A DNA stretch of 46,369 bases from Leucobacter sp. Ag1. Lineage in GTDB: Bacteria; Actinomycetota; Actinomycetes; Actinomycetales; Microbacteriaceae. A program made the translations under genes and the position numbers. The notes under the pieces were generated by a model that saw nothing but the letters and a program-made list of their open reading frames with translations, did no database searches and had not been told where the DNA came from. Numbering within the stretch: the stretch's first letter is position 1; each line of letters opens with the position of its first letter. Below are positions 33,481 through 46,174 of the stretch, piece by piece. The stretch lies in NCBI RefSeq assembly GCF_000980875.1, contig NZ_LAYO01000083.1, positions 1-46,369 on the forward strand. Direction: 5' to 3'.

Positions 33481-33846
33481 TCAGAGCCCGATGAAGCGGA
33501 ACACGGCGACGAACAGCGAGGCCGCGAGCAGCACGATGTTCATGCCGATCGCCTTGGCGTCGTCGTGGCGCACGTGCCAGACGATGGCGAGCACCATCAC
33601 GATCGCGAGTCCGGTCGCGGCGAGGGGCGTGAGCACGGGCAGGATCCCGGTGAGCTGCGGCAGGATCAGGCCGATGCCGCCGAGCGCCTCGGCGAGCCCG
33701 ACGAGCTTCACACCCGTGGGGGAGTAGTCGTTCACCCAGGCCATCTTCTCGGCCAGCTTCTCCTTCGGCGTCGACATCTTCGCGATGCCGGCCATGAGGA
33801 AGAGCGCGGCGAGCAGGCCGGAGACGATCCAGAGGGCGATCTGCAT
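33481..33846 (-). CDS. DoxX-family membrane protein
   Basis: 121-residue protein with about four membrane helices, matching the DoxX/DUF4870-like small oxidoreductase-associated family: QIALWIVSGLLAALFLMAGIAKM at the start, then VGLAEALGGIGLILPQLTG with the family Glu, LAATGLAIVMVLAIVWHVRHDD, and a final helix NIVLLAASLFVAVFRFIGL. ATG 33846 lies six bases after AAAGGA. The gene is divergent from the Ppx/GppA gene and convergent with the glycosyltransferase. No clear partner is encoded nearby. Confidence 0.88.
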   Translation of the reverse strand: MQIALWIVSGLLAALFLMAGIAKMSTPKEKLAEKMAWVNDYSPTGVKLVGLAEALGGIGLILPQLTGILPVLTPLAATGLAIVMVLAIVWHVRHDDAKAIGMNIVLLAASLFVAVFRFIGL

Positions 33847-33938
33847 GGGAGTCCTTTCGAGAACCGTGCGATGCGCGCGCATCGGCACCGCGGGTGCAAC
33901 CCGGAACCGCCCCGCGCTATTCCGGACGGCGGCGGCAC

Positions 33939-40691: not shown

Positions 40692-41165
40692 CTAGCGGAG
40701 GAGCTTGCCCGCGTCGTCGCGCGGGCGCACCGGGTGCTCGCTCAGGATCGAGATCCGGTTGAACGCGTTGATCGCCGAGGCGACCCACTCGGCCGCGACG
40801 AAGGTCTCGTCGCCGAGCACGTTGCGGGCGCCGGCCAGGTCCGCCTGCGCGTCCTCGCTCAGCGGGAGCCGCGTGGCGGCTTCGGCGACGGCGAGCAGCG
40901 CGGCCTCCCGCTCGCCGAAGATCGGGGTCTCGCGCCAGGCGGGCAGGAGATCGAGCTTCTGCTGGGGCACGCCCGCCTCGCGCGCACCGCGGGAGTGCAG
41001 ATCCAGGCAGAACGCGCAGCCGTTCAGCTGGGAGGCGCGTACTTTGATGAGCTCGGCCTCCGCGGGGGTGAGCCCGAGCCGCGTCGCGGCGTCCGCGATC
41101 GAGGCGGAGAAGGTCGAAGCGGCCTGCCACGCCTCGGGGGCGATCTTGTCGAGATAGGGGCGCAC
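40692..41165 (-). CDS. AhpD-like alkylhydroperoxidase (carboxymuconolactone decarboxylase fold)
   Basis: 157-residue CMD/AhpD-fold protein. NGCAFCLDLHSRGAREAG carries the CxxC redox pair Cys50/Cys53 with the downstream His, the site of thiol peroxidase activity. The helices around it (TRLGLTPAEAELIKVRASQL, LLAVAEAATRLPLSEDAQADLAG) are typical. It reduces peroxides with a thiol partner. GTG 41165 follows AAAGGAG by six bases. Its predicted promoter is of the SigR/SigH type and it is divergent from a quinone oxidoreductase with the same type of promoter. Confidence 0.92.
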   Translation of the reverse strand: MRPYLDKIAPEAWQAASTFSASIADAATRLGLTPAEAELIKVRASQLNGCAFCLDLHSRGAREAGVPQQKLDLLPAWRETPIFGEREAALLAVAEAATRLPLSEDAQADLAGARNVLGDETFVAAEWVASAINAFNRISILSEHPVRPRDDAGKLLR

Positions 41166-41201
41166 GTGGACTCCTTTCCGGTCGGTGCCGGTGCTGGGGG
41201 C

Positions 41202-41227
41202 AACCGGCCGATGGGCACCAGTATTCC
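41202..41227 (-). promoter_or_regulatory. SigR/SigH-type promoter of the AhpD-like gene
   Basis: On the minus strand GGAAT (41227-41223), exactly 18 bases, then GTT (41204-41202), the thiol-oxidative-stress sigma factor consensus GGAAT-N18-GTT described for Streptomyces SigR. It ends 37 bases before the start codon. Confidence 0.7.
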
Positions 41228-41239
41228 TGCGAAGCCCCC

Positions 41240-41265
41240 GGAATGGCAGGGGATCGGGGGGTGTT
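41240..41265 (+). promoter_or_regulatory. SigR/SigH-type promoter of the quinone oxidoreductase gene
   Basis: GGAAT (41240-41244), 18 bases, GTT (41263-41265): the same consensus in the opposite direction, 72 bases before the start codon at 41338. A TTGACA hexamer (41264-41269) overlaps it but has no convincing partner. Confidence 0.7.
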
Positions 41266-41337
41266 GACACGGGGGAAGCGCTGTCGCTTCGGATCCGGGG
41301 CGCCCGGATCGATCCGCGAACCATGAGGAGAGCCGCC

Positions 41338-42264
41338 ATGCGAGCCGTCGTCTACGACCGATACAGTCCTGAGCTCGAAGGGCTCGCGGTTCGAGAGGTG
41401 GCGGAACCGAAGCTCTTCGCCGGTTCGGTGCTGATCGAGGTGCGCGCGGCCTCCGTGAACCCCGTCGACTGGAAGATCATGGCGGGGTACCTGGACGGCA
41501 TGATCGATGCGCGGTTCCCGGTGATCCCGGGGTGGGACGTCGCCGGGGTCGTCGTCGCCGTCGGAGCCGATACGCCGGAGTTCCGCGTCGGCGACGAGGT
41601 GCTGGCGTACGCGCGCAAGGAGACCGTGTCGGCCGGGACCTTCGCGGAGCGGGTGGCCGTGCCCGCCGAGGCCGTCGCCCTCAAGCCCGCCGAACTGTCG
41701 TGGGAGCAGGCCGCGGGTCTGCCGCTCGCCGGCGGAACGGCGCTGCGCGCCGTCGACGCCCTCGGCGAGCTGGACGGGCGCGTGCTGCTCGTGCACGCGG
41801 CCGCGGGCGGCGTCGGCAGTCTCGCCGTGCAGATCGCGGTGGCCCGCGGTGCGCGGGTGATCGGCACCGCGTCGGAGCGCAACCACGAGTTCCTCCGGAG
41901 CCTCGGTGCCGAGCCCGTCGCGCACGGCGCGGGGCTCGCGGAGCGGGTGCTCGCGCTGGCGGGCGGGCCGGTCGATGCCGTCGCGGACTTCGTCGGCGGA
42001 CAGCTCGAGACCACGCTCGCCGTGCTCCGCCCCGATGGTCCGCACGTCTCCGTCGCCGACGACTCGGTCGTGGAGCACGGTGGACGCATCATCTGGGTGC
42101 GCGTCGACGGCGCGGAGACGGCCCGCCTCGCCGAGCTCGCCCGCAGCGGCGCCCTTCGGGTCGAGATCGCCGAGACCTTCGGGCTCGACGGGGTCGGGGA
42201 CGCCTTCCGCGCCAGTCGCACCGGACGCACGCGCGGAAAGCTCGTGATCCTGCCGCAGCGATGA
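41338..42264 (+). CDS. Zinc-independent quinone oxidoreductase-like MDR protein
   Basis: 308-residue NADPH:quinone reductase-type medium-chain dehydrogenase/reductase without zinc ligands. VVYDRYSPELEGLAVREVAEP opens the GroES-like fold; VNPVDWKIMAGYLDG and IPGWDVAGVVVAVGADT follow; the Rossmann site is LLVHAAAGGVGSLAVQIAVARGARVIGTAS; VDAVADFVGG is next. It detoxifies quinones or enals under oxidative or electrophile stress. ATG 41338 has AGGAG seven bases upstream, better than farther upstream in-frame starts. The stop overlaps the flavin monooxygenase start by four bases (ATGA). Confidence 0.92.
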   Translation: MRAVVYDRYSPELEGLAVREVAEPKLFAGSVLIEVRAASVNPVDWKIMAGYLDGMIDARFPVIPGWDVAGVVVAVGADTPEFRVGDEVLAYARKETVSAGTFAERVAVPAEAVALKPAELSWEQAAGLPLAGGTALRAVDALGELDGRVLLVHAAAGGVGSLAVQIAVARGARVIGTASERNHEFLRSLGAEPVAHGAGLAERVLALAGGPVDAVADFVGGQLETTLAVLRPDGPHVSVADDSVVEHGGRIIWVRVDGAETARLAELARSGALRVEIAETFGLDGVGDAFRASRTGRTRGKLVILPQR

Positions 42265-43373: not shown

Positions 43374-43391
43374 GTTAGGCTTGGCTAAGTT
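43372..43391 (+). promoter_or_regulatory. IdeR/DtxR-like iron box and -10 of irtAB
   Basis: AAGTTAGGCTTGGCTAA (43372-43388) agrees at 13 of 17 positions with AGGTTAGGCTAACCTAA, the core of the DtxR/IdeR operator. TAAGTT (43386-43391) fits TANNNT as a -10 and is partly covered by the box, so an iron-loaded repressor would block it. It precedes irtA by 36 bases. An AT-rich island in a GC-rich region. Confidence 0.65.
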
Positions 43392-43426: not shown

Positions 43427-46174
43427 ATGGCCAAGCGCGGGTTCTCCGGAGTGATGATGCGCGGGTACGGAGCCCGCGACCACGAGGCGATCGTCACCGA
43501 GGTCCAACCGCTCGTGCCCCACTTCGTGCGGGTGCGCATGAGCGCCCCGACGCTGCTGCAGGACGTGGTGGTCTCGCCGACGGCCTGGCTGCGCTTCTGG
43601 TTCCCCGACCCCGAGCGGCCCGAGTTCGAGCAGCAGCGCGCCTACACGCTCTCCGAGGTCGACGAGGCCGCCGGAACCTTCGCGGTCGACATGGTGCTGC
43701 ACGAGCCCGCCGGGCCGGCGAGCACCTGGGCCGCCGCCGCGGCCCCGGGAACCCGGGTGTCGGTCACGACCCTCGGATCCTCGCGCTTCGACCTGCCGGA
43801 CGAACTGCCCGCCGGCTACCTGCTCATCGGCGACAGCGCGTCGATCCCCGCGATCAACGCGATCCTCGGGACCGTGCCCGACGAGGTGCCGATCGAGATC
43901 TACCTCGAGGAGCACACCCCCGACGACCGGAGGATCCCGCTGCACGAGCACCCGCGCGCTCGCGTGCACTGGGTCCCGCGTCAGGGCGAGACCTCGCTCG
44001 CCGCCGCGATCGAGTCGCGCGACTGGTCGGACTGGTACGCGTGGGCCGCGCCCGAGTCGGGATCGCTCAAGCACCTCCGCGGTCGCCTGCGCGACGAGTT
44101 CGGATTCCCGAAGAGCGAGACGCACGCGCAGGCCTACTGGTACTTCGGTCGCGCGTTCGGCGCGAACCGATCCAAGGCCGCGCCCGAAACGGAGCCCGCG
44201 ACGGAAGCGTCGGCCGCCGATGCGGTCGGGAGGACCGAAGCGGTGGCCGCGGCGATCGCGGCGGATCCCGCACCGGATCCGGCGCGGGATCCCGCACCGG
44301 CCGCGGCCGGCGAGGCGGCTGCTTCCGAGGCGGCCGAGGCACCTGCGGCAGCCGCGGCACCCGCGGCCCCGCGCGGATCCTGGCGGGCGAACGCGGGATC
44401 GCGGCTGCTCGCCCCGCTGCGTCCGAAGCTCGTCGCCGCCGGTGTCGCCCAGGGGATCGTCACCCTCCTGCAGCTCGCTCCGTTCGTGCTGATCGTCGAG
44501 CTCGCCCGACTGCTGCTCGGCGGCGCCGAGGCGTCGCGGCTCTGGGCCCTCGGAGGGTGGGCCATCGGCCTGATGGCCGCGGGCGTCGTGCTCTCGACCG
44601 CACTGCTCGTCTGGACCCACGCGGTCGACGCCCGCTTCGAGCGCGAGCTGCGGCAGCGTCTGCTGCGCAAGCTCGCCCGCGTGCCGCTCGGCTGGTTCGA
44701 CGCACGCGGGTCCGGCCGGGTCAAGCAGCTCGTTCAGGACGACACGCTCGCGCTGCACTACCTCGTGACCCACGCCGTGCCCGACGCGGTCGCCGCCGTG
44801 GTCGCGCCCGTCGCGGTCCTCGTCTACCTGTTCGCGGTCGACTGGCGGATCGCGCTCCTGCTCCTCCTGCCGGTGCTCGTCTACGTGATCGCCATGGCGG
44901 TCATGGTCGTGCAATCGGCGCCGCGCACGGCCGAGGCGCTGCGCTGGTCGGAACGCATGAACAGCGAGGCGGGCTCCTACCTGGAGGGCCAGCCGGTGAT
45001 CCGCGTGTTCGGGGGAGCGGCGGCCACCGGCTTCCGCGCCCGGCTGGGCGAGTACATCGGGTTCCTCGACCGCTGGCAGCGGCCCCTCAGCGGGCAGAAG
45101 GCGTTCATCGACCTCGTCACCCGTCCGGCCACGTTCCTGCTGCTCATCTGTGCGCTCGGCACCGTGCTGATCACCGGCGGGAGCATGCAGCCGATCGCGC
45201 TGCTGCCGTTCCTGCTGCTCGGCACGACGTTCGGCTCCCGGCTGCTCGGGATCGGCTACGGGCTCGGCGGCCTGCGGGCCGGCCTGCTCGCCGCGCGACG
45301 GATCCAGGTCGCCCTCGACGAGCCCGAGCTCGAGACCGAGGAAGCAGGCGAGCCCGCCGAGGGCGCGCCTCGGGTACCGCGCGGCCGCGTCGAGTTCGAC
45401 CGCGTCGGCTTCGCCTACCGGCCGGGCGTTCCCGTGCTGGAGGACGTCTCCCTGTCGCTGGAGCCCGGCACCGTGACCGCGCTCGTCGGCCCGTCCGGAT
45501 CCGGCAAGTCGACCCTCGCCGCCCTGCTCGCGCGCTTCCACGACCCGGAGTCCGGCCGCATCCGCGTCGGCGGCGACGACCTCCGCGCGCTCGACCCCGA
45601 CGAGCTCTACGCCCGCGTCGGCTTCGTGTTCCAGCAGACCCAGCTCGTGAACGGCACAGTGCGCGACAACCTCGCCCTCGCGAAGCCCGACGCGAGCGAT
45701 GCCGAGGTCGAGGCCGCGGCGCGGGCCGCGCAGATCCACGATCGGATCCTGCGCCTGCCCGAGGGGTACGGCACCGTGCTCGGCCCCGACGCCGCGCTGT
45801 CGGGCGGCGAGCGGCAGCGCCTCACGATCGCCCGCGCGATCCTGGCGGACACTCCCGTGCTGATCCTCGACGAGGCGACCGCGTTCGCCGACCCCGAATC
45901 CGAATACCTCGTGCAGCGGGCGCTGAGCCGGCTGGCCGAGGGCCGCACCGTGCTCGTGATCGCCCACCGGCTGCACACCGTCGCCTCGGCCGACCGCATC
46001 GTCGTGCTCGACCACGGCCGCATCGCCGAATCCGGCACGCACGACGAACTCCTCGCTCGGGACGGCCGCTATCGGAGTCTCTGGGACGCCGCGTCCGGGG
46101 TCTCGTCCGGGGTCTCGTCCACCACCGAACCCACCCCCGAACCCGTCGCCGCCGGAACGGAGCAGACCCGATGA
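43427..46174 (+). CDS. irtA: IrtA-like siderophore importer: FAD-binding domain fused to ABC transporter half
   Basis: 915 residues. Residues about 1-240 are the siderophore-interacting reductase (SIP) domain: [18 protein letters not shown] motif (here [12 protein letters not shown]) for FAD and [16 protein letters not shown] for the cofactor. About 245-310 is a low-complexity Ala/Pro/Glu linker. About 320-600 has six membrane helices, and about 640-915 is the ATPase: Walker [10 protein letters not shown] (688-696), Q loop [11 protein letters not shown], signature LSGGERQRL (about 791), Walker [11 protein letters not shown] loop IAHRLHTV. This order is that of mycobacterial IrtA, which with IrtB imports and reduces ferric mycobactin/carboxymycobactin; here another siderophore is likely. 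The linker and C-terminal Gly/Val/Ser repeat make it longer than Mtb IrtA. ATG 43427 follows GAAGG. Overlaps irtB by ATGA. Confidence 0.93.

Follow-up and report, generated by a model that had tools for sequence, protein, structure and literature searches.

A probable bidirectional SigR promoter unit between an AhpD-like gene and a quinone reductase-monooxygenase operon in Leucobacter sp. Ag1

The stretch of Leucobacter sp. Ag1 DNA analysed here (the window, 46,369 nucleotides in its full length) contains a divergent gap with a gene for an AhpD-like protein on one side and an operon for a quinone reductase and a flavin monooxygenase on the other. From its sequence and that of its relatives, we consider it highly probable that this gap acts as a bidirectional SigR control unit for the two transcripts. 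The gap comprises 172 bp (41166-41337) and runs from the GTG at 41165 on the minus strand to the ATG at 41338 on the plus strand, just as an earlier note made from the letters alone had described it. Within it, a motif scan returned two copies of GGAAT-N18-GTT, at 41202-41227 (minus) and 41240-41265 (plus), each aimed at its gene and with only 12 bp between the two -35 boxes (Table 1). Positions, strands and 18-base spacers are those that the note had reported. Its further proposal of a bidirectional thiol-stress unit is supported by the two outward sites together with sigR and an rsrA-like gene in the genome, the specificity for stress being the presumed part.

Table 1. Features in and around the divergent gap (window coordinates).
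Feature	Position	Strand	Basis
AhpD-like carboxymuconolactone decarboxylase-family protein, 157 aa, GTG start	40692..41165	-	PF02627 66.7 bits, TIGR00778 56.3 bits
-10 box GTT, putative promoter of the AhpD-like gene, 18-base spacer	41202..41204	-	motif scan
-35 box GGAAT, putative promoter of the AhpD-like gene	41223..41227	-	motif scan; same place in relative G032
-35 box GGAAT, putative promoter of the quinone reductase-monooxygenase operon	41240..41244	+	motif scan; in 6/6 genus orthologues
-10 box GTT, putative operon promoter, 18-base spacer	41263..41265	+	motif scan; GTTG retained in G032
19-bp palindrome GATCCGGG-gcg-CCCGGATC in the expected quinone reductase 5' leader	41292..41310		sequence reading
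Quinone oxidoreductase, medium-chain dehydrogenase/reductase superfamily, 308 aa	41338..42264	+	PF08240, PF13602, PF00107
ArsO-like flavin monooxygenase, 370 aa	42261..43373	+	NF040505 305.4 bits, below the cut-off of 425

Chance is a poor explanation for such an arrangement, a point on which we come to the same view as the note. The motif occurs three times in the window where 0.30 copies are expected, and none of 100 dinucleotide shuffles of the whole window gave three. When the shuffle value is scaled to the length of the gap, about 0.001 copies are expected per 172 bp, and two correctly oriented copies are therefore very unlikely to have arisen by chance. Transcription would be expected to begin near 41192 on the minus strand, with a leader of about 27 nt, and near 41275 on the plus strand, with a leader of about 63 nt. 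These positions assume about 35 nt between GGAAT and the start site, since relatives have GGAAT 35-36 nt ahead of the start codon. The palindrome in the plus-strand leader is possibly an operator or a hairpin. Its arms are identical in the closest genus relative for this region (genome G032, 90.6% identical over a 10.4-kb comparison), where the middle reads ATG, and by eye it is absent from the 110 nt upstream of the other four genus orthologues. Another palindrome, GAAGCG-n4-CGCTTC at 41275-41290, was dropped as an operator candidate, its arms being changed in G032.

Does this genome encode a sigma factor that would read these boxes? A profile search identified sigR (C33:40868-41437) with 302.6 bits against a cut-off of 251.55. 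It is the only locus above the SigH/SigR family cut-off, and five weaker matches to the SigR model occur in the genome. An rsrA-like match starts 48 bp past the end of the sigR match; its 51.8 bits lie under the NCBIfam cut-off of 62.5, but the translation contains an early cysteine and H-x3-C-x2-C, the zinc-binding motif, so that the SigR/RsrA pair on which the earlier note had made its reading depend can be recognised. A copy of GGAAT-N18-GTT upstream of sigR fits autoregulation. The sigR frame (L071:1722-2477) also has some 65 residues ahead of the sigma region 2 match, which the upstream SigR-type site would transcribe and which presumably recall the longer SigR' form of Streptomyces.

The genome scan that the note had proposed as a check uncovers a recognisable SigR regulon. 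Over 3.54 Mb there are 39 copies of GGAAT-N18-GTT, as against 18 of GGAAT-N16-GTT, the single spacer that served as genome-wide control. GGAAT is followed by A or G in 29 of the 39 copies and in three of the 18 controls. Twenty-eight copies, and no control, are intergenic with a same-strand gene starting no more than 200 bp downstream, genes having been called, approximately, by a simple codon-usage script trained on six window genes. Only the two gap copies lie within 200 bp of each other. Pfam domains were assigned to 26 of 27 proteins at or behind motif copies. They include, for thiol and oxidative stress, a glutaredoxin-fold protein (L054), an Fe/Mn superoxide dismutase (L052), a DsbA-like protein (L050) and a thioredoxin-reductase-like flavoprotein (L075, where the motif lies inside the end of the preceding gene). 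Among the regulators are SigR itself (L071), a primary sigma factor (L061) and a small HTH regulator (L072), and among the reductases a flavin reductase (L047), an FMN reductase (L051), a nitroreductase (L056) and another quinone reductase (L055), besides luciferase-like oxidoreductases (L046, L060, L068) and a glyoxalase-fold protein (L058). A redox role is not evident for CrgA (L074), a prepilin-peptidase-like protein (L073), an AraC-type regulator (L045), a hexapeptide protein (L049), an acetyltransferase (L053), an ankyrin-repeat protein (L067) and a DAHP synthase (L044, behind a copy that lies within a gene). Taken together, the copies outline the known SigR/SigH regulon, some of them being likely chance occurrences. 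At five sites (L045, L046, L049, L055, L068) the distance to the predicted start codon is exactly 35 nt, which suggests that these messages are leaderless. In a context matrix built from 26 other copies, and hence favouring them, the minus site scores 17.7 bits and the plus site 18.8, compared with 15.3-29.3 for those 26; by this measure both gap sites rank low within the genome.

The plus site can be followed well beyond this genome. Orthologues of the quinone reductase (74-100% identity) exist in six of 54 genus genomes, the window's included, and all six carry GGAAT[A/G]-N17-GTT 62-99 nt ahead of the start; the promoter is found at none of 16 more distant genus loci (at most 48% identity). 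The reductase of Leucobacter sp. OLIS6 (NZ_MRAV01000009.1) is 96% identical. G032 has both sets of boxes intact and other bases behind the plus -10 box; conservation in that genome alone is weak evidence, because the two sequences are about 91% identical over the region. Five further relatives came from 398 family genomes: two have an 18-base spacer, two a 17-base spacer, and one, the orthologue L134 (72% identity), is without the promoter. On a wider scale, we considered a set of named loci, the best 80 of 313 relatives, in which 36 have GGAAT-N18/19-GTT within 200 nt (25 with 18 bases, 11 with 19), while one match came from the eleven remaining spacings between 12 and 24 combined. The 36 bearers are related to one another, and four (L169, L170, L171, L173) repeat the promoter letters of genus genomes already counted. 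They belong to Leucobacter, Glutamicibacter, Mobilicoccus, Arthrobacter, Paenarthrobacter, Pseudarthrobacter, Brachybacterium and one Actinomycetota MAG. Streptomyces differs, with the promoter at none of its 27 loci of this reductase among the 80. The promoter stands 35-36 nt ahead of the start codon in 26 of the 36, a distance that points to leaderless transcripts beginning about 35 nt from the first G. We regard it as nearly certain that the plus site is a working SigR promoter.

The reductase promoter is also found in other outward pairs. Three of the 80 named loci, besides the record of G032, have it paired outward with a second GGAAT-N18-GTT, all three in Arthrobacter and thus outside the family (L211, L218, L224; gaps of 31, 31 and 68 bp between the -35 boxes). 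Behind the opposite site lies a gene for a protein of glutaredoxin fold that contains WCGYC and looks by eye like a mycoredoxin. The same putative reductase promoter thus has an AhpD-like gene as its partner in one lineage and a mycoredoxin-like gene in another.

Outward pairs of GGAAT-N18-GTT with 0-30 bp between them occur in eight of the 398 family genomes, a sample that includes the present genome and leaves G032 outside, and a backward-read control gave none. On the assumption of random scatter, which ignores clustering in intergenic gaps, 398 genomes would hold about 1.4 pairs (398 x 20 x 31 x 20 / 3.5 Mb). The excess is modest, because one of the eight is the window's own, one (L270) has no gene found on either side and one (L271) lies between a gene for a CofC-like protein and an unnamed gene. 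Four belong to a single other genus; three of these place a luciferase-like oxidoreductase opposite a dinucleotide-binding protein, with gaps of 2, 21 and 24 bp, and for the fourth (gap 2) gene calling gave the luciferase-like side alone. With part of the pair genes, Pfam searches assigned a luciferase-like domain to L266 and F420_oxidored to both L266 and L269. At L273 a DsbA-like protein is opposite a short-chain dehydrogenase (gap 5). Counting the present genome, six of the eight have a redox gene beside the pair, and their gaps range from 2 to 24 bp.

Might such a pair act as an either/or switch that admits one polymerase at a time? This would add to the bidirectional unit and is compatible with it. 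The 12 bp between the -35 boxes would fit a switch, and so would the outward layout that recurs at the other divergent redox pairs. Its basis is purely geometric, however, and the spread of gaps in the F420-type pair (2, 21, 24 bp) and in Arthrobacter (31, 68 bp) argues against a fixed mechanical requirement, so that we hold a switch to be rather unlikely. For E. coli, competition between overlapping divergent promoters is discussed in the available part of one report (PMC4469952). Among the papers listed in searches for divergent or back-to-back SigR promoters, judged by titles and the opening lines of abstracts, none dealt with such a pair. A broader idea, which we put forward as conceivable though doubtful, is that outward SigR pairs could be a recurrent Micrococcales design joining a thiol-dependent redox protein with a thiol-free reductase, in the tightest cases through competition for one polymerase.

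The minus site requires a closer look, beginning with the protein that it would serve. The AhpD-like protein contains E-x11-C-x2-C-x3-H, which we take to be the AhpD relay motif and the mark of the CMD family, and the CxxC pair holds its only two cysteines. It shares PF02627 and this CxxC motif with the AhpD/CMD family, in which 2gmy, 2ijc and 2o4d are solved relatives. By score it falls outside AhpD proper, with 21.4 bits against the subfamily model TIGR00777 and its cut-off of 191.95. What survives of the "AhpD-like peroxidase" of the earlier note is therefore an AhpD-fold family member with CxxC, whereas it is not AhpD proper and its peroxidase activity is presumed.

Among 24 orthologues of this protein (at least 66% identity), four have an exact GGAAT-N18-GTT within 100 nt of the start, the window and G032 included. 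Two have a copy only 221-243 nt upstream, and 18 have no exact copy in 320 nt; with these two groups in view we rejected a general SigR promoter for AhpD orthologues. The genome also encodes an AhpD paralogue (C48, L041), whose locus contains no motif copy. Upstream of seven orthologues (L085, L087, L088, L091, L092, L096, L103) a CTCTGGTTRASTGGAG-like dyad can be seen by eye, which we assume to resemble a MerR/SoxR-type operator. The same seven adjoin a monooxygenase of 48-50% identity, and their control seems to differ from that in the window.

One could therefore read the plus site as the only working SigR promoter of the gap, with the minus site weak or a product of chance and the AhpD-like gene transcribed mainly from another promoter. 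The deep conservation of the plus site beside a minus site kept in four of 24 orthologues fits this reading, as does the context score of the minus site, the lower of the two. Several observations weigh against it: the minus site begins with GGAATA, the commonest start among the intergenic copies of the genome (14 of 26), lies 62 nt from the AhpD-like start codon and has both boxes unchanged in G032. Moreover, two orthologues, L100 and L102, have exact copies 73 and 89 nt upstream in surrounding sequence that looks unrelated, and the shuffles leave little room for a chance copy in the gap. We therefore judge a single working promoter improbable and the minus site very probably a working SigR promoter, one that its weak conservation indicates to be local in distribution. 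For the pair proposed by the note this means a refinement: conservation is strong for the promoters of the reductase and the monooxygenase and weak for that of the AhpD-like gene.

It is very improbable that these genes depend, in place of SigR, on a different (SigE-like) ECF factor or on housekeeping transcription from a TTGACA at 41264-41269: the five weaker SigR-model matches and the overlap of TTGACA with the plus -10 box can be cited for it, but a single locus exceeds the SigR cut-off, the hexamer has by eye no TAnnnT-like -10 partner at 17-18 bp and is lost in G032, where GTTG is retained, and SigE-like control is countered by the T at the fifth -35 position, with which the C. glutamicum GGAAT promoters tested were read by SigH and not by SigE, according to the accessible part of that report (PMC10012870).

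On the plus side, the start of the monooxygenase overlaps the stop of the quinone reductase in an ATGA (42261-42264), and the claim that the same unit drives the monooxygenase holds with it. The best solved match of the reductase is 3tqh, a quinone oxidoreductase, and against the PIG3-type model TIGR02824 it scores 124.9 bits, below the cut-off of 296.8. The monooxygenase has 4usq, 4c5o and 4a9w as solved relatives and matches the ArsO model NF040505 over nearly its full length (residues 8-360) while staying under the family cut-off. Its relatives were examined at the best 29 of 73 non-own family genomes that match at E 1e-120, with gene starts in relatives transferred by alignment to the window proteins. 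GGAA-N17-19-GTT precedes 17 of the 29 genes within 200 nt, seven times as exact GGAAT-N18-GTT, and eight other spacings from 13 to 23 gave one match over 31 monooxygenase loci. By these counts the monooxygenase appears to be a SigR target independently of the reductase, and their union in one operon would place two such targets under one promoter in this genome.

Neither enzyme of the operon contains a cysteine. Cysteine is likewise absent from 15 of the 16 reductase rows with more than 66% identity (some of them repeating a locus) and from 30 of 32 monooxygenases, and the cysteine content of 30 other proteins of the genome, mostly behind SigR-type sites, is 0.4% (31 in 7,659 residues). The idea that the enzymes are cysteine-free because of SigR control was nevertheless rejected, as cysteine is also missing from 62 of the 90 reductase rows with less than 60% identity (4/4, 10/12 and 48/74 by identity band), many of them without the promoter. 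At the level of sequence comparison, the absence of cysteine is a family trait that is not tied to SigR control. A thiol-free detoxifying pair as an adaptation of the families is plausible.

How does this unit relate to known systems? SigR of S. coelicolor recognises GGAAT-N18-GTT according to the accessible text of PMC2375139, and the present genome shares with its SigR/RsrA regulon these boxes and this spacer, together with a site upstream of sigR and thiol-redox genes as targets. The SigH/RshA regulon of C. glutamicum uses the same promoter boxes and includes quinone reductases. In the available part of one study, a strain without RshA showed the NADPH:quinone reductase gene cg3405 up 13.27-fold and qor2 up 1.60-fold, the latter called weak, and an alkanal monooxygenase, dithiol-disulfide isomerases and thioredoxin genes were also SigH targets (PMC3489674); cg3405 is likened to the window's reductase by function name alone. 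The C. glutamicum regulon differs in that the accessible parts of both reports display no tight divergent promoter pair (PMC3489674, PMC10012870). In S. coelicolor, benzoquinone modifies RsrA directly, as stated in the portion of PMC5288332 at hand, which makes a quinone reductase a sensible target. Our search found no paper naming both SigR and Leucobacter.

A possible course of events can be sketched from these parallels. Oxidation or alkylation of thiols would cause RsrA to release SigR, and RNA polymerase with SigR would then start transcription in both directions, at about 41192 (minus) and about 41275 (plus). The AhpD-like protein could reduce peroxides or act as a thiol relay. Quinones and other electrophiles would be cleared by the quinone reductase, and the monooxygenase may oxidise a carbonyl, sulfur or arsenic compound. 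Being free of cysteine, the operon enzymes could function while thiols are under attack.

Two further observations concern the neighbourhood of the gap. The third GGAAT-N18-GTT of the window, at 33898-33923 on the minus strand, lies 77 nt before the ATG at 33846 (minus) of a gene for a DoxX-like membrane protein (PF13564), and G032 has a corresponding copy (L042:14182). Together with the site at the superoxide dismutase gene (L052), this presumably recalls the SodA-DoxX link of mycobacteria. Downstream of the monooxygenase, TTAGGCTTGGCTAAG at 43375-43389 resembles what we take to be an iron-regulator (DtxR/IdeR) box. It stands between the monooxygenase and the gene at 43427-46174, which encodes a 915-aa protein with siderophore-interacting (SIP) domains and an ABC transmembrane and ATPase half.

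For the genus Leucobacter, these results add a well-supported unit to the SigR thiol-stress response. The unit is mostly an expected extension of the known regulon, quinone reductases being SigH targets already in the available text of PMC3489674. Beyond this, a promoter at this quinone reductase is now seen in several genera of the Micrococcales, and the reductase promoter has a different thiol-redox gene as its outward partner in each of two lineages. A flavin monooxygenase family is tied to thiol or electrophile stress, which provides a first condition for a search for its substrate. Most deserving of specialists' attention are the recurrent outward pairing of the reductase with thiol-redox genes and the connection of the monooxygenase family to SigR.
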